Assembly: GCF_000024845.1 (NCBI RefSeq)
Contig: NC_013501.1
Span: 748,001-812,000, forward strand
From: Rhodothermus marinus DSM 4252
GTDB taxonomy: Bacteria; Bacteroidota; Rhodothermia; Rhodothermales; Rhodothermaceae
Direction of reading: 5' to 3'
Length of the DNA: 64,000 bases
Below, piece after piece: positions 38,311-55,731 of the stretch. Every line of letters starts with the position of its first letter. The first letter of the stretch is position 1. Below the pieces are notes generated by a model. That model saw only the letters and a list, made by a program, of their open reading frames with translations, was not told where the DNA came from and ran no database searches. A program made the translations under genes and the position numbers.

Positions 38311-39264
38311 CTAATCGGCCAGCAGTTGCTCGGCGGTTTCGTGATCGGTGATCAGCACCTTGATGTAGCCGCCGCGCAGGGCGCCACGGATGGCCTCCAC
38401 TTTGGCCGGACCGCCGGCAATGCCCACCACACGCGGAACATGCCGGAGTTCTTCCAGCGTGATCCCGATCAGGTGCTGATCCAGCGACGTCCGCACGGAG
38501 CGTCCCCGGCTGTCGTAGAAGCGCATGGCGATGTCCCCGATGGCGCCGGCCGCTTGCAGTTCTTCGTAAAAACGCTGAAGCTGCTCGTCTTTCGTTTGAA
38601 AGACGGGATTGGTGTTCAGCGCGCCAATGCCGGTGTAGGCCACGGTCAGCCTGGGGAAGAGCGACAGGGCGGCCTGCACGTAACGGTCGCTCAGCAGCAC
38701 CTCGCGGGCTTCCGGGCGGTGCACGATGCCCGGTGCGGGTAGCAGGGTTACCGGGGCCTGCAGGAGCTGGGCCAGCCGGCGGGAGAGATCGGCCGCATAG
38801 GCTTCGGCTTCCGGGGGACCGATGCCGCCTAGGGTCTGGACGACGTGAACTTTCGTGGTGGGCACGCCCTGCAGCTGCTGGATCATGGCCTGCAGCGTGG
38901 TGCCCCAGGTCATCCCGATGACGTCGCCGGCCTGGACGGTACGGCGCAGGTAATCGGCGGCAGCAGCCCCCAGTTGCTTTTTCAGGAGGGCATCATCGCC
39001 TGGCGAGGGCGTCTCCACGATCACCGCTTCCAGCAGGCGATAGCGCCGCTCCAGCTCCGATTCCAGCTCGACGAACTGGCTGGCGCCCCGGATGGTGATC
39101 TGGACGATGCCCAGCCGTCGCGCCTGTTTCAGCAGGCGCGAGACCTTGGGCCGCGACAGCCGCAGCCGCCGTGCAATCTGCTGTTGCGTCAGGTTCTGAA
39201 GGTAATACAGCTCGCTGACCTTCGTCAGCAGCCGTAGATCAAACGGACTCCGCGGTCGGGGCAT
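38311..39264 (-). CDS. SorC/DeoR-type sugar-binding transcription regulator
   Basis: A 317-residue regulator: N-terminal helix-turn-helix (about 12-48, LYYLQNLTQQQIARRLRLSRPKVSRLLKQAR) and a C-terminal SorC sugar-phosphate-binding domain (about 60-315, with IGMTWGTTLQAMIQQL, VQTLGGIG and YTGIGALN, and the end block GGYIKVLITDHETAEQLL). Family members are released from or activated on DNA by phosphorylated sugars. It is transcribed away from the rhamnoside operon across a 191-bp region full of palindromes, so it is the probable regulator of that operon and of itself; the effector may be rhamnulose-1-phosphate or another pathway intermediate. Confidence 0.88.
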   Translation of the reverse strand: MPRPRSPFDLRLLTKVSELYYLQNLTQQQIARRLRLSRPKVSRLLKQARRLGIVQITIRGASQFVELESELERRYRLLEAVIVETPSPGDDALLKKQLGAAAADYLRRTVQAGDVIGMTWGTTLQAMIQQLQGVPTTKVHVVQTLGGIGPPEAEAYAADLSRRLAQLLQAPVTLLPAPGIVHRPEAREVLLSDRYVQAALSLFPRLTVAYTGIGALNTNPVFQTKDEQLQRFYEELQAAGAIGDIAMRFYDSRGRSVRTSLDQHLIGITLEELRHVPRVVGIAGGPAKVEAIRGALRGGYIKVLITDHETAEQLLAD

Positions 39265-39415: not shown

Positions 39416-39433
39416 TTGATCATATGTGATCAA
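39416..39433. promoter_or_regulatory. 18-bp palindromic operator candidate TTGATCATATGTGATCAA
   Basis: Perfect 7-4-7 inverted repeat located just downstream of the predicted transcript start and 12 bases before the GGAGG ribosome site of the susC-like gene. A bound repressor would block transcription here. Confidence 0.6.
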
Positions 39434-39455
39434 ATGTTCAAAAAAAGGAGGCGCC

Positions 39456-42400
39456 ATGTTAAACGACTGGTACAATGTCTGGCGGAACGGCTGGAAGCGA
39501 TTCGGCTTCTGGTTGGTGCATGTCTGGCTGCTCACAGCAAGCGCTTCGATAGCCCAAGCGCAGACGGGAGCGGTTACGGGACGCGTGACAGATGCCGACA
39601 CAGGCGAACCGCTTCCCGGTGTGAATGTGGTGGTGGAAGAACTGGCGACCGGAGCGGCCACCGATGTGGAAGGACGGTATACGATCTCCGGACTGCGGCC
39701 GGGTACCTACACGCTGCGGGCCTCGTTTGTGGGCTATGAAGACCAGACGCAAGCGGTTGCGGTGCGTGCCGGAGAGACGGTGGAGGTGAATTTTGCCCTG
39801 CAGCCCACGACCCTGGGCTTGCAGGAGGTGGTCGTGGTGGGGTATGGCACGCAGCGGTGGGAGGATGTGACGGGTTCGGTGGCGGCAGTCCGTACGGAAA
39901 ACCTGGCGTTGATGCCCGTGACGGGGCCCGATCAAGCGCTGGCCGGTCAGGTGGCCGGGGTGCAGGTGCTGCAGGGGAGCGGCATCCCCGGTGGTGGTCC
40001 ACAGATTCAGGTGCGTGGTGTCGGTGCGATCGGCGCGGGAAATCAACCGCTTTTCGTGGTGGACGGCTTCCCGCTTCCCAGCTCGACCAATGAAATTCGC
40101 AATCCGCTCAACGACATTCCCCCCGAAGACATCGAATCGATTACAATCCTGAAGGACGCTTCGGCGGCAGCAATTTACGGCTCCCGGGCGGCCAACGGCG
40201 TGGTGATCATTACGACAAAGAGCGGGCGGGGACAGCGGCCTACCGTAACGATCACCTCTTCGATCGGCGTGCAGCAGATCCCGCCGGAGCGCAAGCCGGA
40301 CATCATGAGTGCCCGGGAGTTTGCCCAGTGGATGAAGGAGCGCTACGAGGATCACGTGCGGATCGACCTGGGCCGGGAGCCAACCCCGGATGATATTCCG
40401 GAGCCCTATCGCAATCCGGAAAGCGTGCAGGGCGTGGACTGGTTCGATGCCGTAACACGGACGGCCCTGATGTCGGACTTGAACGTAAGCGTCAGTGGAG
40501 GAAGCCAGCTCGTTACCGCCTACTTTTCGGCCGGCGTGTTGCGGCAGGAAGGCGTGCTCAGGAACACCGACTTTACGCGGTATTCCCTCCGGGCCAACCT
40601 GCGCTTCTATCCCAACGACTGGATCAACCTGGGATTGAACGTGTCGCCGGTATTTTCACGGCGCAGTCTGCCCGTGCAGGGGGGCGGTGGCATCTGGGAT
40701 GAGACTTTGCAGCGCAATGCAGGGGCCATTTCGATGGGACAGATTCTGGTAACCTGCCCGATTGCCAGTCTCGACGATGTGCAGGTGGGCTGCCCGGGCA
40801 CCTTATCCTGGCCCAATCCCGTCCTGGCGCTGGAAAGCCTGACGCTTGGCACGGAGTCGGCCCGCTTTGTGGGCAGTTCCTTCGTGGAACTCGAACCTGT
40901 CTCGGGTTTGCGGCTGAAGTCGCAACTGAATACGGAAGTGTTCGGGAGCGAGACCCAGTTCTACCGGCCCTCGACGATCGGAACAATTAACACGCCACCT
41001 CCTCTGGCGCCGCAGGGACGCTACCAGACCAGCAGCTATTTGAACTGGCTGAACGAAAATACGGCCACCTGGAATCTGGCGCTCGGGGATCATTCGGTCG
41101 AGGTGCTGCTGGGCACCAGCTTTCAGAAGCACACGCAGCGGACCGGAAGCTTTACCGGCGAGGAATATCCAAGCGACGAGGTCAAGACGCTGAACGCGGC
41201 CGCGCGCATTACGGGCCAGACGCTGATCGAAGAATGGGGCATGATCTCTTATTTCGGACGGGTCAACTACGAGTATCAGAATAAATACTTCCTCACGGCG
41301 TCGCTGCGTCGCGACGGTTCGTCCCGGTTTGGCCCGAGAAATCGATGGGGGACGTTCCCGGCCGTCGCGCTCGGCTGGCGTCTGTCGGAAGAAGGGTTCC
41401 TGCGGGGGGTTAACTGGATTGACGATCTGAAACTGCGGTTTTCCTGGGGCGAGACCGGTAACAACAACATCGGCAACTACGATTACATCAGCCGGGTGAC
41501 CTCGCAGAATTATGTACTGGGCGGCGGCCTGGCTTCCGGTCGCGTGGTTTCCTCGCTGGGCAACGATCTGCTGGGATGGGAGACCACGCGGGAGACCAAC
41601 CTGGGGCTCGATGTGACGCTGCTGAACAATCGCATCAACCTGAGCGCCGAGGTTTACCAGAGCTATACGACGGATCTGCTTCTTGACGTAGAAATCCCGC
41701 TGTCTTCCGGTTTTACCACGATCAAGGAGAATCGTGGCAAGGTCAGAAACCGGGGAATCGAGGTGGCGCTGCAGACGACCCCGGTCAGAAGAAGCAATTT
41801 CGTCTGGATCTCGAGCTTTAACGTGTCGGCCAACCGAAATGTCGTCCTGGAACTGGGTCCCACCGGCGCGCCCATCTACAGCGGTCGCAGCGGTGAGGCA
41901 AACCCCACGCATATCACGATGATCGGCAAGCCGGTGGGTATGTTTTTCGGGTATGTGTTTGAGGGGCTTTATCGCGACTGGGATGACGTCAACAACAGTC
42001 CGCATTTTCCGGGCGCGATCCCGGGGAACGTGAAGTACCGCGACGTGAACGGAGACGGTACGATCTCACCGGTGAGCGACTTCGACATCATCGGAAATCC
42101 CTACCCGGATCTGGTATTCGGTATCACCAACAGTATCACCTATAAAAACCTGGACGTGCAGCTTGTGCTTACGGGGCAACTGGGCGGGGAGAAGCTGATG
42201 GCCTTCAAGGAATCGCTGAACAACATCGACGGCGTGTTCAATGTGGAGCGCGAGATGCTGCAGCAGTGGCGCTCGCCCGAAGATCCCGGAAACGGCCGGG
42301 TGCCCACGACGGCCGGGACCGCACTTGGCCGGGTCCTGTATCGCGATGTCAACTCGCTGTGGGTCAAAGACGCCTCGCACCTGGCCATCAAGAACATCAC

Positions 42401-42656
42401 GGTCCGCTATAACCTGCCCAACCGCTGGTTCCAGTCCTGGATGTCGATCAACCGGGCGTCCGTCTATCTGAGCGCCCAGAACGTGTACTACTTCACGAGC
42501 TATCCGGGCAATCCGGAGCAGACCAACTACAGCGATATTGTGGTTGATGCCAATACTGCTTTGCGCTATGGCAATCCCAACCTGACGCCCGGGCTGGACT
42601 ATGCGCCCTATCCGTTGCCCCGTACGGTGACGCTGGGCATCGAACTCTCGTTCTGA
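39456..42656 (+). CDS. SusC/RagA-family TonB-linked outer-membrane protein
   Basis: A 1066-residue outer-membrane transporter. Signal peptide (about 1-36, ending AQAQ), carboxypeptidase-like domain (about 40-115, GRVTDADTGEPLPGVNVVVEE), the SusC signature LQEVVVVGYGTQ, a plug with 'IQVRGVGAIGAGNQPLFVVDGFPLP' and NGVVIITTKSG, and a large barrel ending PLPRTVTLGIELSF. The start at 39456 is preferred over an upstream in-frame ATG at 39426 because AAGGAGG lies four bases before it and the earlier ATG falls inside the palindrome. With the SusD-like partner it should import rhamnose-containing oligosaccharides. It is the first gene of the rhamnoside operon. Confidence 0.93.
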   Translation: MLNDWYNVWRNGWKRFGFWLVHVWLLTASASIAQAQTGAVTGRVTDADTGEPLPGVNVVVEELATGAATDVEGRYTISGLRPGTYTLRASFVGYEDQTQAVAVRAGETVEVNFALQPTTLGLQEVVVVGYGTQRWEDVTGSVAAVRTENLALMPVTGPDQALAGQVAGVQVLQGSGIPGGGPQIQVRGVGAIGAGNQPLFVVDGFPLPSSTNEIRNPLNDIPPEDIESITILKDASAAAIYGSRAANGVVIITTKSGRGQRPTVTITSSIGVQQIPPERKPDIMSAREFAQWMKERYEDHVRIDLGREPTPDDIPEPYRNPESVQGVDWFDAVTRTALMSDLNVSVSGGSQLVTAYFSAGVLRQEGVLRNTDFTRYSLRANLRFYPNDWINLGLNVSPVFSRRSLPVQGGGGIWDETLQRNAGAISMGQILVTCPIASLDDVQVGCPGTLSWPNPVLALESLTLGTESARFVGSSFVELEPVSGLRLKSQLNTEVFGSETQFYRPSTIGTINTPPPLAPQGRYQTSSYLNWLNENTATWNLALGDHSVEVLLGTSFQKHTQRTGSFTGEEYPSDEVKTLNAAARITGQTLIEEWGMISYFGRVNYEYQNKYFLTASLRRDGSSRFGPRNRWGTFPAVALGWRLSEEGFLRGVNWIDDLKLRFSWGETGNNNIGNYDYISRVTSQNYVLGGGLASGRVVSSLGNDLLGWETTRETNLGLDVTLLNNRINLSAEVYQSYTTDLLLDVEIPLSSGFTTIKENRGKVRNRGIEVALQTTPVRRSNFVWISSFNVSANRNVVLELGPTGAPIYSGRSGEANPTHITMIGKPVGMFFGYVFEGLYRDWDDVNNSPHFPGAIPGNVKYRDVNGDGTISPVSDFDIIGNPYPDLVFGITNSITYKNLDVQLVLTGQLGGEKLMAFKESLNNIDGVFNVEREMLQQWRSPEDPGNGRVPTTAGTALGRVLYRDVNSLWVKDASHLAIKNITVRYNLPNRWFQSWMSINRASVYLSAQNVYYFTSYPGNPEQTNYSDIVVDANTALRYGNPNLTPGLDYAPYPLPRTVTLGIELSF

Positions 42657-42686: not shown

Positions 42687-44189
42687 ATGAAACGATATAC
42701 ACTCATTCTGATTGCCGGCCTGCTGATCGCTTCGTGCGACAGCCTGATCGACGTGCAGCCGCAATCGGACATTTCGACGGAGACCTTCTTCCGCACGCCT
42801 GCGCAGATTGATCAGGCGATCCTGGGCGCCTACGGCTATCTGCAGACGCTTTACAGTGGCACCGATTGGAATGGCGCTTTTGTCATGCTCGAAATGCGTT
42901 CCGATAACACAACATATCAGTTTAATGTGGACAATCGGGGCGCGCTTCATGCCGAGCAGATTGATGAATTCAGAGAGCAGTCTGAGAATGTAGTGTTGCA
43001 GTTTTTCTGGCAGACTTCCTATCAGGGAATTTATCAGACCAATGTGATACTGGATCGAATTGAGTCGGTGAATTATGGCAATAATACTGCTTTGAAAGAT
43101 CAGCATATTGGCGAAGCAAAATTTCTGCGTGCTTTTAACTATTTCAATCTGGTCCGGCTGTTCGGCGGCGTGCCGTTGAAGTTGCACGAAATCAAAACGC
43201 CATCGGAAGTGTATGCCGAAGGGCGGGCTTCGGTGGACGAGGTCTATGCACAGATTCTGTCCGACGTGCAGGATGCGGTGCAGAAGTTGCCCTGGACCTA
43301 TCCGGCGGAACAGGCCGGCCGGGCCACGAAAGGAGCGGCGCTGATGCTGCTGGCCGAAGTGCATATGACCCGCCAGAACTTCAGCGAGGCGCGTGCCGCT
43401 CTGGAGCAGATCGTAAGTGCGGGGATCTACGAACTGCTTCCGGATTACGCGGAGGTGTTCAACCCGGCCAGTAAAAACCACCCGGAATCCATCTTTGAGA
43501 TTCAGTACAGCAACAACTACGAGGGCGAAGAGGCGGACTGGATCTTTCAGTTTGCGCCGTTCAATTCGGGCTGTGCGCTGATGCAGGGGCCGTGTCAAGG
43601 ATCTCGTCAATATGCTTGGAATATTCCTACTCGAGATATCATAGAAGCCTATGAGCCCGGTGATCTGCGCAAGGATGTGTCCATCGGCTGGTACGAAGAT
43701 CCTTCCAATGTGCAGTATGACGTCGCCATTGGCGATTCCATTCCCTACGTCAAGAAGTTTGCCTGGCCCTTCAACGCACTGAACCGGACGAACGAAAACT
43801 GGCCGGTTTACCGCTACGCGGAGACGCTGCTGCTCCTGGCCGAAGCGCTGAACGAAGAAGGACGTACGGCCGAGGCGGAGCCCTATCTGAACGCGGTGCG
43901 GGCACGGGCCGGGCTGGCGCCGCTCACGGGGCTGTCTCAGGAGGAATTCCGGCAGGCCGTCTGGCATGAGCAGCGGGTGGAACTGGCCTTCGAGAACAAG
44001 CGCTGGTTCCAGTTGCTCCGGACCGGCCGGGCGCTGGACGTGATGCGTGCCCACGGAGAGCAGATGCGTCAGATTTCGGAGCGCATGGCCCGCGAAAATG
44101 CCTACCAGATCGAGCCGTACCGGCTGCTCTACCCCATTCCGCTGCGCGAAGTTATCTTGAATAACCTGGAACAGAACCCCGGCTATTAA
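42687..44189 (+). CDS. SusD/RagB-family glycan-binding lipoprotein
   Basis: This 500-residue lipoprotein has a lipobox (LLIASC, Cys 17) and SusD signatures: DVQPQSDISTETFFRTPAQIDQAILGAYGYL, AKFLRAFNYFNLVRLFGGVPL, KGAALMLLAEVHM, the YRYAETLLLLAEALNEEGR helix and VELAFENKRWFQLLRTGRA. It forms the lid on the SusC channel and binds glycans at the surface. It starts 30 bases after susC. A segment of about 180 bases (42961-43140) has only about 39% GC by hand count, far below the surroundings, suggesting mosaic ancestry of the binding region. Confidence 0.93.
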   Translation: MKRYTLILIAGLLIASCDSLIDVQPQSDISTETFFRTPAQIDQAILGAYGYLQTLYSGTDWNGAFVMLEMRSDNTTYQFNVDNRGALHAEQIDEFREQSENVVLQFFWQTSYQGIYQTNVILDRIESVNYGNNTALKDQHIGEAKFLRAFNYFNLVRLFGGVPLKLHEIKTPSEVYAEGRASVDEVYAQILSDVQDAVQKLPWTYPAEQAGRATKGAALMLLAEVHMTRQNFSEARAALEQIVSAGIYELLPDYAEVFNPASKNHPESIFEIQYSNNYEGEEADWIFQFAPFNSGCALMQGPCQGSRQYAWNIPTRDIIEAYEPGDLRKDVSIGWYEDPSNVQYDVAIGDSIPYVKKFAWPFNALNRTNENWPVYRYAETLLLLAEALNEEGRTAEAEPYLNAVRARAGLAPLTGLSQEEFRQAVWHEQRVELAFENKRWFQLLRTGRALDVMRAHGEQMRQISERMARENAYQIEPYRLLYPIPLREVILNNLEQNPGY

Positions 44190-44210: not shown

Positions 44211-47039
44211 ATGCGAATCTGGCTTTGCTTAATGGTGCTCCTCTTTCTGGGAGGAGCGAAAGAGGGGGCTGCGCAGTCGAACCAGGCGTTGCAGGTTGCT
44301 TCGCTCCGCACGGAATACCTTGTCAATCCGATCGGGATCGAGGTCCGGCAGCCGCGGCTGAGCTGGCAGCTGCAGAGCGACCGACGGGATGTACGCCAGG
44401 TGGCCTATCAGATTCAGGTGGCCACCAGCCGCGAAGCGCTCGCGCGCGGACGCGACCTTGTATGGGACAGCGGCCGCGTCGAGTCGGACCAGTCGGTCTT
44501 CGTCCCCTATGGCGGACCGGCGCTGCAGCGCCGCCAGCGCTACTACTGGCGCGTGCGCGTCTGGGACAACCACGGCCGCAGTTCGGCCTGGAGCGAGCCG
44601 GCCTTCTGGGAAATGGGGCTGCTGTCGCCTGACGAGTGGCGGGCGCAGTGGATCACGTACAACTGGGAAGAAGATACCTCGCAGCCTCAACCCGCACCGA
44701 TGCTGCGCCGGACGTTCCGCGTCGAGGGCCGCGTGCGCCGCGCCCGCCTTTACATAACCAGCCTGGGCCTCTACGAGGCGCACCTGAACGGTCGCCGGGT
44801 GGGCGATCAGCTCTTCACGCCGGGCTGGACGAGCTACCACCATCGCCTCCAGTACCAGACCTACGATGTAACGGACCTGCTGCGTCCGGGCGAAAATGCC
44901 CTTGGCGTGATCCTGGGCGATGGATGGTACCGGGGCTATCTGACCTGGTCAGTCCGGCGCAACGTTTACGGCGACCGGCTGGCACTCCTGGCCCAGCTCG
45001 AAATCACCTACGAGGACGGCCGCACGCAGGTCGTGACCTCGGACCCCGACTGGAAGGCGACGACCGGGCCCATCCGTATGTCGGACATCTACATGGGCGA
45101 GATCTACGACGCCCGCCTTGAAAAAGAAGGCTGGACCGAGCCGGGTTACGACGACAGCGACTGGCGGGGCGTGCGCGTGCTGGAGCACCCGAAAGACATC
45201 CTGATTGCGCCCATCGGTCCGCCCGTGCGCCGCATTCAGGAGATCCGTCCGGTCGCGATCCTGTACACGCCCGCAGGCGATACGGTGGTGGACATGGGGC
45301 AGAACATGGTGGGCTGGGTGCGGCTGCGCGTACGGGGGCCGGCTGGCACGGTTGTGACGCTCCGTCATGCCGAAGTGCTGGACAAGCACGGCAATTTCTA
45401 TACGGAAAACCTCCGCCGAGCCAGACAGACGGACCAGTACATCCTCAAGGGAGAAGGTGAGGAAGTTTTCGAGCCCCATTTCACCTTCCACGGCTTCCGC
45501 TACGTGGCCGTCAGCGGCTATCCGGGGGAGCTGACACCTGAGGCCATTACCGGCATCGTGATCCACTCGGCCTTTGAGCCGACCGGCACATGGGTCAGCT
45601 CGGACTCGCTGCTGAACCGGCTTCAGCTCAACATCCAGTGGGGCATGAAGGGCAACTTCCTGGACGTGCCCACCGACTGTCCGCAACGCGACGAGCGGCT
45701 GGGATGGACGGGCGACGCCCAGGTGTTTGCCCGGACGGCCATGTTCAACGGGCTGGTCGGCGGCTTTTTTACCAAGTGGCTGGGGGATGTGGCGGCCGAT
45801 CAGAGCCCGGAAGGAGCTGTACCCCATGTCGTGCCCAACGTCCTGCCTTCCTTTGCAGGACGGTTTCCGGGCGGTGCGACCGGCTGGGCCGATGCCGCCG
45901 TGGTCATTCCCTGGACGATGTACCAGGTGTATGGCGACCGGCGCATTCTGGAGGTGCAGTATCCCAGCATGAAGGCCTGGGTCGAGTACATGCGCCGGGA
46001 AGCAGGCGACGATCTGATCTGGGACACGGGCTTCCACTTTGGCGACTGGCTGGCATTCGTGCCCGAAGAGAATGTGCGGCGGGCCTATCCGGGGGCGACG
46101 ACCGGGCGCGATTTTCTGGCAACCGCCTACTTCGCCTACAGCACACGGCTGCTGGCGCAGGCGGCCGAAGTAATCGGGAAAACCGACGAAGCCCGGCACT
46201 ACCGGCAGTTGTACGAGGCCATCCGGGAAGCCTTCAACCGCGAATTCGTCACACCCAACGGGCGCGTTGCGCAGGCCACTCAGACGGCCTACACGCTGGC
46301 CATTCAGTTCGATCTGTTGCCCGAGCACCTGCGGGCCGAAGCCGGGCGCCGGCTGGCCGAAGACGTGCGCGCTCATAACATGCACCTGACCACGGGCTTT
46401 CTGGGCACCCCGCAGCTACTGCACGCGCTCAGCAACACCGGCCAGCTCGACGTGGCCTACACGCTGCTGCGGCAGACCACCTACCCCTCGTGGCTCTACC
46501 AGGTGAAAATGGGCGCCACCACGATGTGGGAGCGCTGGGACAGCATCAAGCCCGACAGCACCTTCCAGGACCCCAGCATGAATTCCTTCAACCACTATGC
46601 TTATGGCTCGGTGGGCGACTGGATGTATCGCGTGGTGGCGGGAATCGATACGGAAACGCCGGGTTACCAGCGGCTGCGCATCGCGCCGCAGCCGGGAGGT
46701 GGGCTGAAGTGGGTGCAGGCGCGCTACCATTCGCTCTACGGCGAGGTTGCCTCGAGCTGGGAGCTGGTCGATCCACAGACGTTCGTGCTGGAAGTCACCA
46801 TCCCGCCGAACACCACCGCCACCGTGCGCCTGCCGGGCGCGCAGCTGGCGTCGGTGCAGGAAGGCCGACAGCCGGTGCAATCCGCGGCCGGGGTGCATCG
46901 GGCCTATCAGGACGGCGCCGATGTGGTGGTCGAAGTCGGCTCGGGCACCTACCGGTTCACCTATTCGCCCTCGGCGGAGCTGGTCCGGCGCATTCAGACG
47001 CAGCCTGAGGTTGGACAGCCTGTGACGATGAGCTTTTAG
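44211..47039 (+). CDS. Glycoside hydrolase family 78 alpha-L-rhamnosidase
   Basis: A 942-residue exported enzyme with a signal peptide (about 1-21, ending GAAQ). Domain order fits GH78: N-terminal fibronectin-like domain (EYLVNPIGIEVRQPRLSWQL), the rhamnosidase N domain (RRARLYITSLGLYEAHLNGRRVGDQ), a beta domain, the (alpha/alpha)6 catalytic barrel and a C-terminal beta-sandwich. The general acid region CPQRDERLGW begins at residue 490 (E495), and the base region TMWERWDS has E774. It releases L-rhamnose from glycans, flavonoid glycosides or pectic chains. Located 21 bases after the SusD gene, it defines the operon's substrate. Confidence 0.94.
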   Translation: MRIWLCLMVLLFLGGAKEGAAQSNQALQVASLRTEYLVNPIGIEVRQPRLSWQLQSDRRDVRQVAYQIQVATSREALARGRDLVWDSGRVESDQSVFVPYGGPALQRRQRYYWRVRVWDNHGRSSAWSEPAFWEMGLLSPDEWRAQWITYNWEEDTSQPQPAPMLRRTFRVEGRVRRARLYITSLGLYEAHLNGRRVGDQLFTPGWTSYHHRLQYQTYDVTDLLRPGENALGVILGDGWYRGYLTWSVRRNVYGDRLALLAQLEITYEDGRTQVVTSDPDWKATTGPIRMSDIYMGEIYDARLEKEGWTEPGYDDSDWRGVRVLEHPKDILIAPIGPPVRRIQEIRPVAILYTPAGDTVVDMGQNMVGWVRLRVRGPAGTVVTLRHAEVLDKHGNFYTENLRRARQTDQYILKGEGEEVFEPHFTFHGFRYVAVSGYPGELTPEAITGIVIHSAFEPTGTWVSSDSLLNRLQLNIQWGMKGNFLDVPTDCPQRDERLGWTGDAQVFARTAMFNGLVGGFFTKWLGDVAADQSPEGAVPHVVPNVLPSFAGRFPGGATGWADAAVVIPWTMYQVYGDRRILEVQYPSMKAWVEYMRREAGDDLIWDTGFHFGDWLAFVPEENVRRAYPGATTGRDFLATAYFAYSTRLLAQAAEVIGKTDEARHYRQLYEAIREAFNREFVTPNGRVAQATQTAYTLAIQFDLLPEHLRAEAGRRLAEDVRAHNMHLTTGFLGTPQLLHALSNTGQLDVAYTLLRQTTYPSWLYQVKMGATTMWERWDSIKPDSTFQDPSMNSFNHYAYGSVGDWMYRVVAGIDTETPGYQRLRIAPQPGGGLKWVQARYHSLYGEVASSWELVDPQTFVLEVTIPPNTTATVRLPGAQLASVQEGRQPVQSAAGVHRAYQDGADVVVEVGSGTYRFTYSPSAELVRRIQTQPEVGQPVTMSF

Positions 47040-47061
47040 CCACGCAAAACCTGCCGAACGC

Positions 47062-48495
47062 ATGGCACAATCCTCCCGCATGCAGGCCCTGGCGGCGCGG
47101 CTCGACGCGCTCAACGAATTCGACCGCGAGCCGGTAACGCCCGATCGGCTTCAGGGACTGAGCAGTTTCCTGGGACTCTATGCCGGCGAGCACGTGGCGG
47201 GCACGGAGTTCGTCATCGGGCCGCTGTTCGTCGCGCACGGCGTGGCAGCGGCCGATCTGATCGGCGGATTGCTGCTGGGCAACCTGCTGGCCGTGCTTTC
47301 CTGGGCGTTCATCTGTGCGCCGATCGCCGTCCGCACGCGCCTGAATCTCTACTGGCAGCTCCGCAAGATCACGGGGCCGTACCTGCTGGTGCTCTACAAT
47401 CTCGTCAATGCCCTGATGTTCTGCTTCCTGGCCGGCTCCATGATCTCGGTGGCGGCCACGGCCGTCGGCATGCCCTTCGACATGAAAATGCCCGGGCTCG
47501 ACGATCTGTATCCGAACAGCGTGGGCTGGGTGCTGACCGTGTTTTTCGTCGGGGCGGTGGTGACGGTCTTTGCCATCCTGGGCTTCGAAAAGATCGCCCA
47601 GCTGGGTAAGGTGGCGGCCCTGTGGATGTTTCTGGTGTTTGTGGCCTGTGCGCTGGCCGTCCTGCCGCAACTGGGCGTGCATTCGTGGAGCGACTTCTGG
47701 CGCGTGGCCCAGGAGAAGATCTGGACCGGCGAGCCCATGCCGGGCCGCGTGAAGTTCACCTTCTGGCATGTGGTGTTTTTCTCCTGGTTTACGAATATGG
47801 CCATGCATATCGGCATGGCGGACCTGACCGTGTTGCGCTACGCGCGCAAATGGACCTACGGCTTTGCCAGCGCGGCCGGCATGTACCTGGGGCACTTCAT
47901 CGCCTGGATTGCCTCGGGCATCTTGGTGGCGGCCGCGCTGGAGCAGGGCGGCGACGTGGCCCCCGGCCCCATCGCCTACCTGGGGGCCGGCGTGGCCGGG
48001 CTGATCGCGGTCGTGATCGCCGGCTGGACCACGGCCAACCCCACCATCTATCGGGCCGGACTGGCCATCCAGACGATCACGCCCAACTGGAAGCGCTGGA
48101 AGGTGACGCTGGCCGTGGGCGCCGTGACCACCGTCGCCGCGCTGTTCCCGGCCATCATGATGCGGCTGCTCGACTTCGTGGCGCTCTACGGACTGCTGCT
48201 GATGCCTATGGGTGCGGTGATCTTTGCCGACTTCTGGCTGCTGCCGCGCCTGGGATTGCGCTCCTACTATGCCGAGTGGCGCAGGCTGCTCTTCAGCTGG
48301 CCCGCCGCCGTGGCCTGGAGCGGGACGCTGCTCGTGTGCGGGCTGCTGAACCTGCTGCTGGGCTGGCAGATCTTCTTCCTCGGCTTGCCCGGCTGGTTCG
48401 TGGCCGTGGCGCTCTATGTGGGGCTCAGCTACCTGCAGCAGCGCCGCGCGGCGCCGGTGCCGACACCCGAAGTTACCGCAAACCTGACGAAATAA
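47062..48495 (+). CDS. NCS1-like permease, candidate L-rhamnose transporter
   Basis: The 477-residue product has about 12 membrane spans and an N-terminal soluble stretch (FDREPVTPDRLQG). It resembles the nucleobase-cation-symport-1 (purine/cytosine permease-like) group: GLYAGEHVAGTEFVIGPLFV, GLLLGNLLAVLSWAFICAP and a GWTTANPTIYRAGLAIQ segment in the eighth-helix region. Known NCS1 members move nucleobases, hydantoins or vitamins with H+ or Na+. Placement between the rhamnosidase and rhamnose isomerase, with no other sugar carrier in the operon, implies transport of L-rhamnose. That function is inference. The following 60-residue membrane protein starts four bases after it. Confidence 0.8.
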   Translation: MAQSSRMQALAARLDALNEFDREPVTPDRLQGLSSFLGLYAGEHVAGTEFVIGPLFVAHGVAAADLIGGLLLGNLLAVLSWAFICAPIAVRTRLNLYWQLRKITGPYLLVLYNLVNALMFCFLAGSMISVAATAVGMPFDMKMPGLDDLYPNSVGWVLTVFFVGAVVTVFAILGFEKIAQLGKVAALWMFLVFVACALAVLPQLGVHSWSDFWRVAQEKIWTGEPMPGRVKFTFWHVVFFSWFTNMAMHIGMADLTVLRYARKWTYGFASAAGMYLGHFIAWIASGILVAAALEQGGDVAPGPIAYLGAGVAGLIAVVIAGWTTANPTIYRAGLAIQTITPNWKRWKVTLAVGAVTTVAALFPAIMMRLLDFVALYGLLLMPMGAVIFADFWLLPRLGLRSYYAEWRRLLFSWPAAVAWSGTLLVCGLLNLLLGWQIFFLGLPGWFVAVALYVGLSYLQQRRAAPVPTPEVTANLTK

Positions 48496-48499
48496 AACC

Positions 48500-48682
48500 A
48501 TGTTACGCCGTCTGTTGCAGGGACTGTCCGGCCTGGGGCTGGTCCTGACGGTCGCTCCCTCGTGGCTGGTGTTTGCCGGCCGGATTACCTGGGAGATGCA
48601 CGCCGACCTGATGCTGGTGGGAACGGCCCTCTGGTTTGCCACGGCGCCGTTCTGGATGCGATCGAAAGCGGACATGCTCTGA
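48500..48682 (+). CDS. Small two-span membrane protein
   Basis: A 60-residue protein with two hydrophobic helices: LLQGLSGLGLVLTVAPSWLVFAG (about 5-27) and ADLMLVGTALWFATAPFWM (about 35-53), ending in a short basic/acidic tail. It sits between the permease (four bases upstream) and rhamnose isomerase (six bases downstream) in a tightly packed operon, so it is very probably translated. I do not recognise a named family. By position it may be an accessory subunit of the permease, as small membrane partners are for some sodium symporters. Confidence 0.72.
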   Translation: MLRRLLQGLSGLGLVLTVAPSWLVFAGRITWEMHADLMLVGTALWFATAPFWMRSKADML

Positions 48683-48688
48683 AAAACC

Positions 48689-49975
48689 ATGATCGACGCG
48701 GAAATTCTGGAACGACACAACCGACAGCGTGAGGCCGCACACCGGCGTGATCTGGAGTACCTGGCCGAGCGGCTAGCGCGAAGCGGGATCGCGCTGGAAG
48801 TGGTGCTCGACGAACTGGCCACTTTCGAGGTGGCGCTGCCCACCTGGGCCATGGCGGCCGGCGGCACGCGCTTCGGGCGCTTTCCGATACCGGGCGAACC
48901 GCGCACCATCTTCGAAAAGCTCGAAGATGCTGCCGTCATTCATCAGCTCACGCGGGCCACGCCGCGCGTGTCGCCGCATTTCCCCTGGGACGTGGTAGAT
49001 GACTGGGCGGCGCTGCGGGCCCATGCCGAGGCGCTGGGGCTGGGCTTCGATGCGGTCAACTCGAACACGTTTCAGGATCAGCCCGGCCAGCCACATTCCT
49101 ACAAACTGGGCTCGCTCAGTCACGCCGATCCGGCCGTCCGGCGCCAGGCCATCGCGCACAACCTGCAGGTCGTCGCCTGGGGACAGGAGCTGGGTTCAAC
49201 GGCACTGACCGTCTGGCTGGCCGACGGAAGCAACTATCCGGGCCAGATGCACCTGCGCCGCAGCTTCGAGCGCGTGCAGGAAAGCCTGGCCGAAATCTAC
49301 GCGGCGCTCCCCGAAGGCTGGCGGATGCTCATCGAATACAAGCCCTACGAGCCGGCTTTCTACGCTACGGTCATTCAGGACTGGGGCTCGGCGTTGCTGC
49401 TGGCCCAGGCGCTGGGCGAGCGGGCGCAATGCCTGGTCGATCTGGGCCACCACCTGCCCAACACCAACATCGAACTCATCGTGGCACGGCTCATCGGGGT
49501 CGGCAAGCTGGGAGGGTTTCATTTCAACGATGCCAAGTATGGCGACGACGATCTGACGGCCGGTTCTATCAAGCCCTACCAGCTTTTTCTCGTATTCAAC
49601 GAACTGGTCGATGCAGCGCGCGAGGGCGTGCCGGGCTTTCGGCCGGCCTACATGATCGATCAGAGCCACAACGTGAAAGACCCGATCGAGGCGCTGCTGC
49701 AGACGGTCGATCATCTGCAGCGGGCCTATGCGCGGGCGCTGCTGGTCGATCGCGAGGCACTCAGCCACTACCAGGAGACGGGCGACGTGCTCATGGCAGA
49801 GCGCACGCTACGGGCGGCGTTCGAGACCGACGTCGGGCCGCTGGTGGCCGAAGTGCGTCGCCGTCGCGGTGGCGCCCTGGACCCCGTGCTGGCCTTCCGG
49901 GAGTCCGGCTACCGTCAGCAGAAGGCCCGCGAACGGAGCACCCCGGCAACTGCACAAGCACCCGGCTATGCGTGA
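48689..49975 (+). CDS. rhaI: L-rhamnose isomerase (RhaI type)
   Basis: A 428-residue TIM-barrel isomerase of the Pseudomonas stutzeri-like class. The putative metal ligands E216, D251, H278 and D324 for one ion and H254, D286 and D288 for the other occur in motifs MLIEYKPYEPAF, CLVDLGHHLPNTN, 'GFHFNDAKYGDDDL' and MIDQSHNVKDP; the spacing equals that of the P. stutzeri enzyme with a shift of three. It converts L-rhamnose to L-rhamnulose. The 3' end overlaps rhaB by eight bases. Confidence 0.94.
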   Translation: MIDAEILERHNRQREAAHRRDLEYLAERLARSGIALEVVLDELATFEVALPTWAMAAGGTRFGRFPIPGEPRTIFEKLEDAAVIHQLTRATPRVSPHFPWDVVDDWAALRAHAEALGLGFDAVNSNTFQDQPGQPHSYKLGSLSHADPAVRRQAIAHNLQVVAWGQELGSTALTVWLADGSNYPGQMHLRRSFERVQESLAEIYAALPEGWRMLIEYKPYEPAFYATVIQDWGSALLLAQALGERAQCLVDLGHHLPNTNIELIVARLIGVGKLGGFHFNDAKYGDDDLTAGSIKPYQLFLVFNELVDAAREGVPGFRPAYMIDQSHNVKDPIEALLQTVDHLQRAYARALLVDREALSHYQETGDVLMAERTLRAAFETDVGPLVAEVRRRRGGALDPVLAFRESGYRQQKARERSTPATAQAPGYA

Positions 49976-51407
49976 GCGGCGAGCAGGCTACCTGGCCTTC
50001 GACCTGGGCGCCTCCAGCGGGCGTGCCATGCTGGGCTGGCTGGAAGGACCGGTCCTGCACATGGCCGAGGTGCACCGCTTCGAGACGTCCTTGATCGAAC
50101 GGGACGGCCACCTCTTCTGGGACGTGGAGGCGCTGGAGCAGGAGATCTGGACCGGCCTGCAGCAGGCGCTGGCGCAGATGCCGGCGCTGCGTGCGGTGTC
50201 GGTGGATTCCTGGGCGGTCGATTACGTGCTGCTGAACCGGGAGGGGCGTCCGCTCCGGCCGCCTTACAGCTACCGGGACACGCGGACGCGCCCGATGATG
50301 GCGCGGGCCTTTGCCCGCGTCGCGCCGGCCGAACTCTACGCCCGGACGGGTATCCAGCTGATCCCTATCAACACGCTCTACCAGCTCTTGGCCGACCTGG
50401 AAGAGGACCCGGCGGTGCTTCGTCGGGCCGAACGGCTGCTGCTGATCGCCGACTACTTCAACCACCGGCTGGGTGGGCAGCCCGTGGTCGAAGTCTCGAT
50501 GGCCAGCACCACCCAGCTCATGAACGTGCATACCCGCCAGTGGGACGCGGAGCTGCTGCGCGCCTTCGGGCTCGATTTTCCGTGCTGGCCCGAAATCGTG
50601 CCTTCAGGCCAGGTGATCGGCCAGGTGCGGGGGCATCCATCTGTGGCCGTGATCGCTTCGTGCTCGCACGACACGGCCTGCGCGGTGGCGGCCGTGCCCG
50701 CCCGTCCGGGCACCCGCTGGGCTTACATCAGCCTCGGCACCTGGGCGCTGCTGGGCGTGGAGCGCACCACGCCGATCCTGACCGACGCCGCCCGGGAGGC
50801 CGGCTTCACGCACGAGGCGGGGCTCGACGGCACGATTCGTTTCCTGAAAAACCTGACGGGCCTCTGGGTGCTGCAGGAGTGCCTCCGGGCGTGGCGCCAG
50901 GAAGGACCGGTCTCGTGGGAAGCGCTCGAAGCCGAAGCGCGTGCGGCGCCCGCCGAACGGTGCTACCTCGACCTGGACGATCCCTACTTCTTCGAGCCGG
51001 GACAGATGCCCGAGCGCATCGTGGCCTATTGCCGGCAGCACGGCCTTCCGGTACCGGAAAGCCGGGGCCAGATGGTACGGGCCATCCTGGAAAGCCTGGC
51101 CCGGAACTTCCGGCGGGCGCTGCGCCAGCTGGAGGCGCTCCTCGAAGCGCCCGTCGACACGCTGCACATCGTGGGCGGCGGCGCCCGTAACCGGCTGCTC
51201 TGTCAGCTCACGGCCGACACGTGCGAGGTGCGCGTGGTGGCCGGTCCGGCCGAAGCGACGGCCATGGGCAACCTGCTCATTCAGGCCCGCACGCTGGGCG
51301 ACCTGCCCGAAGGCTACACGCTGCGCGACGTTGTGGCCCGCTCCGAGACCTGCTGGATCTACGAACCTCATCAGAAATCCATCCCGCAACCCGCAACCGA
51401 AAGATAG
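49968..51407 (+). CDS. rhaB: Rhamnulokinase
   Basis: This 479-residue FGGY-family sugar kinase starts with the phosphate-binding loop YLAFDLGASSGRAML, has VSVDSWAVDYVLLN and YRDTRTRPMM in the first domain, the catalytic-base region ASCSHDTACAVAAVPA and the second ATP loop HIVGGGARNRLLCQLTAD. These are characteristic of RhaB, which phosphorylates L-rhamnulose at C1. The ATG at 49968 overlaps the rhaI stop; the open frame upstream lies within rhaI and lacks homology. Its stop is immediately followed by the aldolase start. Confidence 0.94.
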   Translation: MRERRAGYLAFDLGASSGRAMLGWLEGPVLHMAEVHRFETSLIERDGHLFWDVEALEQEIWTGLQQALAQMPALRAVSVDSWAVDYVLLNREGRPLRPPYSYRDTRTRPMMARAFARVAPAELYARTGIQLIPINTLYQLLADLEEDPAVLRRAERLLLIADYFNHRLGGQPVVEVSMASTTQLMNVHTRQWDAELLRAFGLDFPCWPEIVPSGQVIGQVRGHPSVAVIASCSHDTACAVAAVPARPGTRWAYISLGTWALLGVERTTPILTDAAREAGFTHEAGLDGTIRFLKNLTGLWVLQECLRAWRQEGPVSWEALEAEARAAPAERCYLDLDDPYFFEPGQMPERIVAYCRQHGLPVPESRGQMVRAILESLARNFRRALRQLEALLEAPVDTLHIVGGGARNRLLCQLTADTCEVRVVAGPAEATAMGNLLIQARTLGDLPEGYTLRDVVARSETCWIYEPHQKSIPQPATER

Positions 51408-53600
51408 ATGGAAACGCAGATGACGTTCACGTTCGTGGAAAACCGCTGGGACGATGCGGTCGCGGATCAACTGGATCCGCTGGGACGCCTGGTGTACCGT
51501 TCCAACCTGCTGGGCAGCGACTGGCGCATCACGAACACCGGCGGTGGCAATACGTCCTCCAAGCTGATCGAGCGAGATCCGATCACCGGTGAGCCCGTCG
51601 AGGTGCTCTGGGTCAAAGGCTCCGGAGGCGATCTGCGCACGGCTACGCGGAAGAACTTCGCCTCGCTTTACCAGCAGAAATTGCTGGCGCTGCAGGAAAT
51701 TTACGCCCGCATGGAACCACGTGGCCCCAAGACGCCGGCCGAAGATGCCATGGTCGAACTGTTTCGCCATTGCGTCTTCAACCTGAACCCCTGCGCGCCC
51801 AGCATCGACACGCCGCTGCATAGCTTCATCCCTTATCGGCATGTCGATCATACCCATCCGGTCCCCTGCATTGCCATCGCTACGGCCAAAGACGGCCCGG
51901 ACCTGACGCGGGAGATCTACGGCGACGAGGTGCTCTGGGTGGACTGGCAGCGGCCCGGATTCGAGCTGGGGCTCAAGCTGCAGGAACTCTGTCGCCGGCA
52001 TCCTTCGGCCCGCGGGGCGATTCTGGGCGGTCATGGCCTCATCAACTGGGCCGACGACGACAAAGAGTGCTACCTGCTCACGCTCCGATTGATCGACCAG
52101 GCCGCGCAATATCTGGCCCGCTTCGATCGGGGGATCGAAACGTTCGGCGGACGGAAATATCCGGCGCTTTCCGAAGCCGAACGGGAAGCCGTGCTGGTCG
52201 AAATCCTGCCCTGGCTGCGTGGCCAGCTCAGCCAGGAAAAACGGGTGATTGCTACCGTCGAGACGAGCGAAAACGTCCTGGATTTTGTCAACGCGAACCG
52301 GGCGCCGGAGCTGGCCGAGCTGGGAACGTCGTGCCCGGATCACTTCCTGCGCACGAAGATCAAGCCGCTCTACGTGGACTGGAATCCGACGGTCGAGTCG
52401 GTGGAGGTGCTCAAAGAGCGCCTGCAGGAAGGGCTGGAGCGGTACCGCGCCGACTATCGGGCCTACTACGAGGCGCATCGCAAACCCGACTCGCCGCCCA
52501 TGCGCGGCGCCGACCCGACCGTGGTGCTCATTCCCGGCGTCGGCATGATCGCCTGGGGCAAGACCAAAAGCGAAAGCCGCGTGACGGCCGAGTTTTACAA
52601 GAGCGCCATCGAGGTGATGCGCGGGGCCGAGTCGGTCAGCACCTACACGGCGCTGCCGCGCCAGGAGGCGTTCGACATCGAGTACTGGGCGCTGGAGGAG
52701 GCCAAGCTGCGGCGTATGCCGCCCGAGAAGGAGCTGGCCCGGCAGATTGTCGCCGTCGTGGGAGCGGGTAGTGGTATCGGCCGTCGCGTGGCCGAACGGC
52801 TGGTGCAGGAAGGCGCGGTGGTGGCCGCACTGGACCTGAACGGTCCGGCCGCCCGCGAAACGGCCGATCGCATCCTGGAGCAGGTGGGCATGGGCATCGG
52901 TGTGGCCGGTACGGGCATTTCGGCCTGCGGCGACGCCATCGGGCTGGAAGTGGACATGACCGATCGCGAGGCCGTGCGCCGGGCGCTTCGTTGGGTGATT
53001 CTGGCCTATGGTGGACTGGACCACCTGGTGATCACCGCTGGACTTTACGTGCCGCCGCCGCCCACCGGCGAGATTCCCGATGCCCGCTGGGACGACACCT
53101 TCCGGGTGAATGTGACGGGTCCGTTCATCGTAGCGGACGAGGCCCGGCGCATCTGGGAAGCCCAGGAACTGCCCGGTTCGCTGGTCATTACCACCAGCGT
53201 CAACGCTGTGGTGCCCAAGGTGGGTAGTATGGCGTACGACACGAGCAAGGCGGCCGCCAACCACTTGGTGCGTGAGCTGGCCCTCGCGCTGGCGCCGCTC
53301 GTCCGGGTCAACGGCGTGGCGCCCGCGACGGTCGTCGAAGGCAGTGCCATGTTTCCGCGCGAGCGGGTCATCGCTTCCCTCCTGCGCTATGGCATCCCCT
53401 TCGACGAAAACGAAGACACCGAAACGCTTCGCCAGCGGCTGGCCGACTTCTACGCGCGGCGCAACCTGCTCAAAGCGCCGATCACGCTGGACGATCAGGC
53501 CGAAGCGATCTTTCTGCTGGTGAGCGGACGCCGCCTGAGCAAAACCACCGGCCAGGTGCTCCACGTGGACGGCGGCATTCCGGAAGGCTTTCTGCGATGA
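51408..53600 (+). CDS. rhaD: Bifunctional rhamnulose-1-phosphate aldolase / short-chain dehydrogenase
   Basis: A 730-residue fusion. Residues about 1-420 are a class II zinc aldolase (TNTGGGNTSSK substrate loop, 'LHSFIPYRHVDHTHP' with zinc histidines, then ILGGHGLI). Residues about 445-730 are a short-chain dehydrogenase with the NAD loop VVGAGSGIGRRVAERL (G452 onward) and the catalytic YDTSK (Y610, K614). The aldolase splits rhamnulose-1-phosphate into dihydroxyacetone phosphate and L-lactaldehyde; the dehydrogenase then probably oxidises lactaldehyde to L-lactate, as in the RhaEW-type enzymes. The ATG abuts the rhaB stop; an alternative ATG is at 51420. lutA overlaps its end by four bases. 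Confidence 0.93.
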   Translation: METQMTFTFVENRWDDAVADQLDPLGRLVYRSNLLGSDWRITNTGGGNTSSKLIERDPITGEPVEVLWVKGSGGDLRTATRKNFASLYQQKLLALQEIYARMEPRGPKTPAEDAMVELFRHCVFNLNPCAPSIDTPLHSFIPYRHVDHTHPVPCIAIATAKDGPDLTREIYGDEVLWVDWQRPGFELGLKLQELCRRHPSARGAILGGHGLINWADDDKECYLLTLRLIDQAAQYLARFDRGIETFGGRKYPALSEAEREAVLVEILPWLRGQLSQEKRVIATVETSENVLDFVNANRAPELAELGTSCPDHFLRTKIKPLYVDWNPTVESVEVLKERLQEGLERYRADYRAYYEAHRKPDSPPMRGADPTVVLIPGVGMIAWGKTKSESRVTAEFYKSAIEVMRGAESVSTYTALPRQEAFDIEYWALEEAKLRRMPPEKELARQIVAVVGAGSGIGRRVAERLVQEGAVVAALDLNGPAARETADRILEQVGMGIGVAGTGISACGDAIGLEVDMTDREAVRRALRWVILAYGGLDHLVITAGLYVPPPPTGEIPDARWDDTFRVNVTGPFIVADEARRIWEAQELPGSLVITTSVNAVVPKVGSMAYDTSKAAANHLVRELALALAPLVRVNGVAPATVVEGSAMFPRERVIASLLRYGIPFDENEDTETLRQRLADFYARRNLLKAPITLDDQAEAIFLLVSGRRLSKTTGQVLHVDGGIPEGFLR

Positions 53601-54331
53601 CCGTCGCGCTTTTTGTGCCCTGCTATATCGATCAGTTTTACCCGCACGTGGCGCGGGCAGCGCTGACGCTGCTGGAGCGGCTGGGCTGTCGTGTGGAGGT
53701 GCCGCTGGACCAGACCTGCTGCGGGCAGCCGCTGGCCAACACGGGATTTGCCCGGGAGGCGCGGCCTGTTATGGCGCACTTCGTGCGGGTGTTCGCGCCG
53801 TACGAGTACATCGTGGCGCCTTCGGGCAGTTGCGTCTTTCACGTGCGACACCACCTGGAGGCGGACGATGCCGGAGCCGTCCGGCACGTGCAGCAGCGCA
53901 CCTACGAGCTGTGCCAGTTTCTGCGCGAAGTGCTGCAGGTCGAGCGGATTCCGGCGCGTTTCCCGCACCGAGTGGCGGTGCACGACAGCTGCCACGGCCT
54001 GCGCGGCCTGGGGCTGGGCCGTCCGTCCGAGCGCATGACGCCCGCCTACAGCATGGTGCGCGACCTGCTGCGGCAGGTCGACGGACTGGAGCTGGTCGAG
54101 CCGTCGCGCCCCGACGAGTGCTGCGGTTTCGGCGGAACGTTCGCCGTCGAAGAAGAAGCGGTGTCGGTGCGCATGGGGCAGGATCGGCTCGACGACTTCC
54201 TGCAGGCCGGCGCCGAAGTGGTCGTCAGTACCGATATGTCCTGCCTGATGCATCTGGAGGGGCTGGCGCGGCGAGAGCGGCTGCCCCTGCGCTTTTTGCA
54301 CGTGGCCGAGATCCTTGCCGGAGCGGACTGA
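53597..54331 (+). CDS. lutA: L-lactate utilisation protein LutA (iron-sulfur, CCG domain)
   Basis: The 244-residue protein has two cysteine-rich CCG domains: DQTCCGQPLANTG near the N-terminus and DECCGFGGTFAVEEE in the C-terminal half, plus HDSCHGLRGLGL. This is the LutA (YkgE) pattern; with LutB and LutC it forms an iron-sulfur L-lactate dehydrogenase complex that makes pyruvate. It overlaps the aldolase gene by four bases and lutB by one, so it is expressed with the rhamnose genes. Confidence 0.94.
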   Translation: MTVALFVPCYIDQFYPHVARAALTLLERLGCRVEVPLDQTCCGQPLANTGFAREARPVMAHFVRVFAPYEYIVAPSGSCVFHVRHHLEADDAGAVRHVQQRTYELCQFLREVLQVERIPARFPHRVAVHDSCHGLRGLGLGRPSERMTPAYSMVRDLLRQVDGLELVEPSRPDECCGFGGTFAVEEEAVSVRMGQDRLDDFLQAGAEVVVSTDMSCLMHLEGLARRERLPLRFLHVAEILAGAD

Positions 54332-55731
54332 TGGAGGGATTCATCGAACTGCCTGTGGTCGATCATGCCCGGCTGGCCGCCCGCTTTGCGGCCGATGCCG
54401 AACGTGTGCAGTGGCACGATGCACTGCTCTGGCAGGTGCGGCTAAAGCGCGATCGGGCCGCTGCCGAGGTGCCTGAATGGGAGGAATTGCGGCGACTGGC
54501 CTCGGAGATCAAGGCGCACGTGCTCACGCATCTGGATCGCTACCTGGAGCAGTTCGAGGCACAGGCGCGCGCCTGCGGTATCCAGGTGCACTGGGCGCGC
54601 GATGCCGCCGCCCACAACCGTATCGTGCATGAGCTGCTGGCCGCCCGCCACGTGCGGCGTGTGGTCAAAAGCAAGTCGATGCTGACCGAAGAGTGCGGTC
54701 TGAACCCCTACCTGGAGGCGCGTGGCATCGAGGTGGTCGATACGGACCTGGGCGAGCGCATCATGCAATTGCTCCGGCAGCCGCCCAGCCACATCGTAAC
54801 CCCGGCCATCCACCTGCGTCGCGAAGAGGTGGCCCGGCTCTTTCATGAAAAGCTCGGCGTGCCCGAAAACCTGACGCCCGGTGAACTGGTGGCCGTCGCC
54901 CGCCGGGTGCTTCGCCAGAAGTTTCTGGAAGCCGAGGCGGCCATCACGGGCGTCAACTTTGCCGTGGCCGAAACCGGAACGCTCGTCGTCTGCACGAACG
55001 AGGGCAACGCCGATCTGGGCATGCACCTGGCACCGGTGCACATTGCCGCAATGGGGATCGAAAAGCTCATCCCGCGCCTGGTCGATCTGGGCGTGTTTCT
55101 GCGGTTGCTGGCGCGCAGTGCTACCGGCCAGCCCCTCACGGTGTACACGACGCACATCGGTCGGCCGCGTCCCGGCCAGGAAGTGCACGTGGTGCTGGTC
55201 GATAACGGCCGAAGCCGTCGGCTGGGGCTGCCACGCTTCTGGCCGGCGCTGAAGTGCATTCGGTGTGGGGCCTGTATGAACACGTGCCCGGTCTATCGCC
55301 GGAGCGGTGGTTACAGCTACGGAGCCACGGTGCCCGGACCGATCGGCGCCATTCTGATGCCAGGCTACGACACGGCCCGCTATCGGACGCTGCCCTATGC
55401 TTCATCGCTGTGCGGCTCGTGTCGCGAGGTGTGTCCCGTACAGATCGACATCGACGAGCAGCTGTATGCCTGGCGACAGGAGGTCGGTCCGCGCTATGCC
55501 TCCCGTCTGAAGCGCCTCGTCATGCAGCTGGCCGCCCGGGTGCTGGCTTCGCCGAAGCGTTACCGGTGGGGCGGACGCCTGCTGCGCTGGAGCCTGCGGC
55601 GCCTGTCACGTCGGGTCCTCTATGGCCCCTGGAACGGCTGGGGACGTGCCCGCGAGCTACCCCCGGCCCCGGCGGAAAGTTTTCTGGAATGGTATCGGAA
55701 AACCAGGGCCTCGGCCACGGGGCAACAATAA
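54331..55731 (+). CDS. lutB: L-lactate utilisation protein LutB (4Fe-4S, LUD domain)
   Basis: A 466-residue protein. The N-terminal LUD domain (about 60-300: VVKSKSMLTEECGLNPYL, GVNFAVAETGTLVVCTNEGN) is followed by a ferredoxin-type pair of 4Fe-4S motifs, CIRCGACMNTCPVY and CGSCREVCPVQIDI, and a basic C-terminal helix region. This is LutB (YkgF). The ATG lies within the TGATG junction with lutA. The longer upstream frame inside lutA is rejected. Gap to lutC is 71 bases, the largest in this part of the operon. Confidence 0.95.
   Translation: MEGFIELPVVDHARLAARFAADAERVQWHDALLWQVRLKRDRAAAEVPEWEELRRLASEIKAHVLTHLDRYLEQFEAQARACGIQVHWARDAAAHNRIVHELLAARHVRRVVKSKSMLTEECGLNPYLEARGIEVVDTDLGERIMQLLRQPPSHIVTPAIHLRREEVARLFHEKLGVPENLTPGELVAVARRVLRQKFLEAEAAITGVNFAVAETGTLVVCTNEGNADLGMHLAPVHIAAMGIEKLIPRLVDLGVFLRLLARSATGQPLTVYTTHIGRPRPGQEVHVVLVDNGRSRRLGLPRFWPALKCIRCGACMNTCPVYRRSGGYSYGATVPGPIGAILMPGYDTARYRTLPYASSLCGSCREVCPVQIDIDEQLYAWRQEVGPRYASRLKRLVMQLAARVLASPKRYRWGGRLLRWSLRRLSRRVLYGPWNGWGRARELPPAPAESFLEWYRKTRASATGQQ

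Follow-up and report, generated by a model that had tools for sequence, protein, structure and literature searches.

A putative Na+-coupled L-rhamnose importer with an NCS1-type fold and a probable small partner protein in the rhamnose operon of Rhodothermus marinus

L-rhamnose is a plant sugar, and the known NCS1 members carry nucleobases and related rings. The two meet at a locus in Rhodothermus marinus DSM 4252, where a stretch of 64,000 nucleotides (the window) contains a set of rhamnose genes with a membrane protein of NCS1-like appearance, P0001, encoded among them. This raises the question of what P0001 carries across the inner membrane, and to which class of carriers it belongs.

The operon and its carrier gene

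The genes follow one another in the order susC, susD, GH78, carrier, 60-aa ORF, rhaI, rhaB, rhaD-SDR, lutA and lutB (Table 1). Neighbouring genes are no more than 30 bases apart, with 22 bases between the end of GH78 and the start of the carrier gene, and the 193-base gap between the carrier gene and rhaI is occupied by the 60-aa ORF; no excess of RNA structure over shuffled sequences was found in this interval. The rhamnose content that the preliminary description had read from the operon is confirmed by curated models for RhaI, RhaB and RhaD-SDR, together with GH78, SusC and SusD, the RhaI (TIGR02629) and RhaB (TIGR02627) scores lying slightly below the curated cut-offs. The L-rhamnose operon around P0001 is complete. 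P0001 had also been taken as the only inner-membrane carrier of the operon; it is indeed the sole multi-pass carrier, but the small two-helix protein encoded behind it had been overlooked.

Table 1. Features of the rhamnose operon and its upstream regulator, in window coordinates
Feature	Position	Strand	Basis
SorC/DeoR-type sugar-binding regulator, divergent, upstream of the operon	38311..39264	-	PF04198 E 1e-69
SusC-like TonB-dependent outer-membrane transporter; true start probably 39456	39426..42656	+	TIGR04056 E 3e-250
SusD-like outer-membrane lipoprotein	42687..44189	+	PF07980, PF14322
GH78 alpha-L-rhamnosidase, apparent signal peptide (by eye)	44211..47039	+	PF17389 E 2e-125
P0001, NCS1-fold carrier, 477 aa, putative L-rhamnose:Na+ symporter	47062..48495	+	ORF, fold match, residue conservation
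Two-helix membrane protein, 60 aa, putative carrier subunit	48500..48682	+	conserved; no known family
rhaI, L-rhamnose isomerase	48689..49975	+	TIGR02629 E 6e-184
rhaB, rhamnulokinase; start inferred from sequence	49968..51407	+	TIGR02627 E 8e-137
rhaD-SDR, rhamnulose-1-phosphate aldolase-dehydrogenase fusion	51408..53600	+	PRK08324.1-3, TIGR02632, above cut-off
lutA-like CCG-domain protein, probably L-lactate oxidation	53597..54331	+	PF02754
lutB-like L-lactate oxidation protein; start inferred	54331..55731	+	ORF; name from sequence and position

The carrier gene starts with ATG, has no internal stop codon and is present in a single copy in the genome (3,386,737 bases in two contigs). Its reading frame stays open in relatives at 45–80% identity from many phyla, so P0001 is a real gene. 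An antisense ORF of 660 aa that lies over it (46957-48939, minus strand) was rejected as a gene; it is a shadow ORF of GC-rich coding DNA.

Fold and conserved residues of the carrier

P0001 matched nothing in Pfam, even at an E-value of 10. PF02133 (Transp_cyt_pur) was accordingly missed by P0001 at this threshold and also by 42 relatives at E 0.1, among which the other Pfam matches were stray only. Within NCBIfam, P0001 is weakly matched by CytX (TIGR02358, E 3e-9), and a few relatives weakly match the cytosine permease model PRK11017 (2e-12) or TIGR00800 (ncs1), the latter with only 2 of the 43 members and 1.6e-11 at best. A profile assignment to a non-sugar transport class had been named as an argument against a rhamnose carrier; the matches of this kind all lie far under the family cut-offs, and it is the fold that gives the NCS1 placement.

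Since a search of the PDB with the P0001 sequence (phmmer and profile) matched nothing, a fold comparison was needed. We have built an AlphaFold2 model of P0001 on 43 sequences (mean pLDDT 89.5), for which Foldseek returned CodB at rank 1 (E 4e-10). Structural alignment with VIA-align gave Z scores of 31.0 for CodB and 28.4 for Mhp1 over about 400 residues at 15–17% identity, as compared with 22.9 for SMCT1, 21.4 for vSGLT and 21.1 for SiaT, which are SSS carriers. Because both NCS1 proteins score above all of the SSS carriers, the predicted fold is that of NCS1, clearly nearer to it than to other LeuT-fold families, which bears out the NCS1 likeness first noticed by eye. P0001 is then a protein whose model has the NCS1-type fold and whose sequence lacks the NCS1 family profile (PF02133 or TIGR00800). 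The SSS proteins vSGLT, SiaT and SGLT are LeuT-fold, Na+-coupled sugar carriers of a separate family, and from these examples it is clear that the LeuT fold can carry sugars.

CodB (cytosine) and Mhp1 (hydantoin) are NCS1 carriers (TC 2.A.39) of nucleobase or related rings (PMC9379551). Their likeness to P0001 extends beyond the fold to TM8, where the alignment of CodB LNIWTTNDNALYASGLG with P0001 IAGWTTANPTIYRAGLA contains a common W-T-T motif, and where T323-T324 of P0001 fall on the Na2 residues T278-T279, both of which bind the sodium ion in CodB (PMC9379551). T323 and T324 are conserved to at least 97% in 76 rhamnose-type sequences, and in 14 of 14 sequences of the mannitol type described below. 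From these residues we infer that the carrier is coupled to Na+ at a Na2-type site. The carrier family also has invariant residues of its own, namely E43, H44 and E49 on TM1 and W242, N245, H249 and D254 on TM6, to which the fixed Y330 and R331 can be added. P0001 differs from CodB and Mhp1 by other residues on TM1, TM3 and TM6, as well as by low identity, lack of PF02133, linkage to a sugar operon and the small partner. For the aromatic pair W108/F204 of CodB, carrier TM3 has no conserved Trp and the F204 counterpart is non-aromatic, in an alignment of about 15% identity that places the invariant W242 nearby.

Genome context, exchange with RhaT and the mannitol-linked branch

Scanning for the carrier in a single genome of each species, we obtained 66 loci from about ten phyla, among them Rhodothermota, Balneolota, Gemmatimonadota, Bacteroidota, Acidobacteriota, KSB1, Latescibacterota, Aminicenantes and Planctomycetota. 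A rhamnose isomerase, kinase, aldolase or GH78 gene is found inside the 8-kb flanks of 50 of these loci (isomerase in 31, GH78 in 23), and 16 have no rha gene in the available stretch, some of these contigs ending early. We have also observed a set of Acidobacteria carriers (L038, L039, L040, L042, L043 and L050) with no rhamnose genes nearby and a weakly similar small ORF downstream. Four loci (L012, L036, L056 and L060) have RhaA, which is unrelated to RhaI, as their isomerase and still keep the carrier; the carrier is thereby retained while the isomerase is exchanged, RhaI or RhaA.

Co-occurrence with RhaI, which had been suggested as a check on the rhamnose assignment, was counted in three samples of whole genomes: the class of the window (195 genomes, of which 35 have the carrier, 38 RhaI and 34 both), a second family (149, of which 27 have the rhamnose-type carrier, 31 RhaI and 27 both) and a third family (248; 56, 71 and 55, respectively). 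RhaI is present in 34/35 carrier genomes against 4/160 others in the first (Fisher p 2e-32), 27/27 against 4/122 in the second (p 9e-26) and 55/56 against 16/192 in the third (p 3e-39), p values that overstate independence because the sampled genomes are related. Pooled over the 592 genomes, 116 of 118 with a rhamnose-type carrier have RhaI. The sole class genome with the carrier and without RhaI (G144) is a contig of 4,188 bases that breaks off early in a rhaD-like gene. Of the genomes in the window's own genus, two contain carrier and RhaI together, and five contain neither. At flavobacterial and Balneola loci the carrier is paired with RhaI and RhaD. Genome context points to a carrier function tied to L-rhamnose use.

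RhaT, an L-rhamnose:H+ symporter of the DMT superfamily, has the job proposed for P0001 and occupies the same type of rha locus, but is unrelated to it in family and fold. A further rhamnose carrier gene in the genome had been raised as an objection; a PF06379 search found no RhaT in the window's genome, and the E. coli and Bacteroides controls matched. In the second family, RhaI without the carrier is seen in four genomes (G211, G417, G543 and G556), all of which have a strong RhaT at about 232–238 bits; in G211 it adjoins rhaD. One of them, G543, has an intact RhaT followed by a 156-residue carrier remnant (L148, 4721-6317), whereas G439 has an intact carrier and, next to rhaD, a RhaT of which an internal deletion has left 84 residues (L150, 5238-6638 and 13110-13325). 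Such reciprocal decay at the same type of locus is the pattern expected of two carriers that share one substrate. The G439 carrier was considered as a pseudogene with three TAA codons, a reading rejected on its 467 codons, which read through without a stop. Four RhaI genomes of the class lack the carrier and RhaT alike, and some flavobacterial genomes contain the two together, so that other uptake routes exist and the exclusion is not strict. A side observation in a genome with the carrier and a strong RhaT (G131) is a rhaI gene apparently in two pieces (L095, 5002-6269).

The 60-aa protein (MLRRLLQGLSGLGLVLTVAPSWLVFAGRITWEMHADLMLVGTALWFATAPFWMRSKADML) matched no family in Pfam or NCBIfam. With a profile made for it, a counterpart was found at E values of 1e-8 or below in 49 of the 66 loci, usually between 1e-20 and 1e-30, and weakly in 8 more; the gene lies nearly always right 3' of the carrier gene, and in Balneolaceae between rhaD and rhaI. 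The partner is not universal, since the profile matched nothing at flavobacterial rhamnose-type loci.

A sister branch of the carrier (L091-L093 and L097-L108; about 572 aa, 37–41% identity) was traced to 14 distinct loci, at every one of which its gene directly precedes that of a mannitol-dehydrogenase-family protein; at one of them it also precedes a PfkB kinase gene. These mannitol-type sequences form one fully supported clade in the tree. Genomes with this branch alone have no RhaI (0/8 and 0/11), and G329 has one carrier of each type at separate loci. The two branches are distinguished by the fixed differences (rhamnose to mannitol) G42>A, L123>I, A124>S, G125>A, T328>N and L369>I and the nearly fixed C121>S/T, N326>I and P327>T/A, several of which adjoin the Na2 site. 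The mannitol-type proteins have an extra C-terminus that aligns with the small protein from end to end (hhalign probability 89%, E 2e-6), as compared with about 2% or less for windows of the same carriers that do not overlap the C-terminus; by this alignment, the small protein is fused to the carrier in the mannitol branch, which becomes a candidate mannitol carrier with a built-in subunit. Planctomycete carriers next to RhaA (L056, 8001-9842; L060, 2579-4408; about 612 aa) also have a C-terminal two-helix extension, modelled in L060 as two extra helices at low confidence. Its profile match to the small protein is weak (13%), so that a fusion here is only suggestive. From its conservation, position and fusion, the 60-aa protein probably serves the carrier as an accessory subunit. 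The small partner, the mannitol-linked branch and the RhaT swaps are all additions to the preliminary description.

Proposed function and alternatives

Taken together, we predict, with a probability of roughly 0.8, that P0001 is a Na+-coupled L-rhamnose importer of NCS1 fold that acts with a small subunit. Glycans that bear rhamnose would pass the outer membrane through SusC/SusD, and the secreted GH78 would release L-rhamnose in the periplasm. P0001, a LeuT-fold symporter from a sister branch of NCS1, would then take one sugar into its central pocket and move it inward with Na+ at the Na2-type site, the 60-aa protein probably being bound to it as a subunit on which its assembly, stability or transport activity depends. 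RhaI, RhaB and RhaD-SDR, enzyme steps that rest on curated models, would convert L-rhamnose into DHAP and lactate, and the Lut proteins would oxidise the lactate.

Instead of free rhamnose, the carrier could import L-rhamnosides (di- or oligosaccharides, or rhamnosyl glycosides) that a glycosidase cuts inside the cell. GH78 adjoins the carrier in many loci, and in a Bacteroidia branch (L041-L065) the genes of the carrier and the small protein are followed by that of a GH78 in which no signal peptide is obvious, with a RhaT relative close by in L049 (6655-9467), L051 (6710-9491) and L059 (2031-9458); the carriers of this branch may transport a rhamnoside. The GH78 of the window, however, begins with a signal-peptide-like segment, so that free rhamnose is expected outside the inner membrane, and the pockets of known NCS1-fold carriers take small ring substrates. 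The pairing with RhaI and RhaD at flavobacterial and Balneola loci, and the trade with RhaT, a monosaccharide carrier, also speak for free rhamnose, and we regard rhamnoside import by P0001 as unlikely.

It is less probable still that the carrier serves to export or exchange L-lactate, lactaldehyde or 1,2-propanediol formed when rhamnose is degraded. Its gene does sit among catabolic genes, and the lut-like genes indicate lactate handling in the cell, but they imply that lactate is consumed, the Na2 site suggests Na+-driven import, and import best explains the RhaT swap; moreover, the mannitol route, to which the sister carrier is as tightly linked, would not yield these products. Lastly, an ordinary nucleobase, hydroxymethylpyrimidine or hydantoin permease placed in the operon by chance would agree with the CodB/Mhp1 fold and with CytX, cytosine permease and generic NCS1 as the sole profile matches, but we give this hardly any credence in view of the weakness of those matches, the missing Pfam Transp_cyt_pur, the near-constant company of RhaI and, in the low-identity alignment, the unconserved TM3 tryptophan of CodB and Mhp1.

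In their survey, Rodionova et al. 2013 give RhaT, RhaFGHJ and RhaY as the only L-rhamnose carriers, and the main text mentions neither NCS1 nor Rhodothermus (PMC3870299); RhaFGHJ (ABC) and RhaY (MFS) serve rhamnose uptake in rha regulons, as proposed for P0001, but belong to other transporter classes. The main text of PMC9007349 contains no rhamnose case, and our search of the open literature for NCS1 together with rhamnose or mannitol transport found no paper.

The carriers look like an unrecognised family of sugar carriers. We lean towards viewing them as a two-component, Na+-coupled sugar/polyol family of NCS1 fold, with a rhamnose branch in about ten phyla, its subunit mostly a separate gene, and a mannitol branch whose carriers include the subunit as a fused part; the family would stand in for RhaT and other carriers. 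Echvi_1617 of Echinicola vietnamensis is reportedly listed as an L-rhamnose transporter in GapMind / Fitness Browser, from mutant fitness; if it belongs to the carrier family, the function is partly known already. The paired branches differ at few fixed positions (TM1, TM3 and TM8), which makes the choice of substrate directly testable. If the proposal is true, names such as 'cytosine permease' would be corrected, the small partner would be a new accessory subunit, the missing rhamnose uptake step would be filled in Rhodothermota, Balneolota, Gemmatimonadota, Flavobacteria and others, and a widespread sugar/polyol branch would widen the known substrates of the NCS1 fold.
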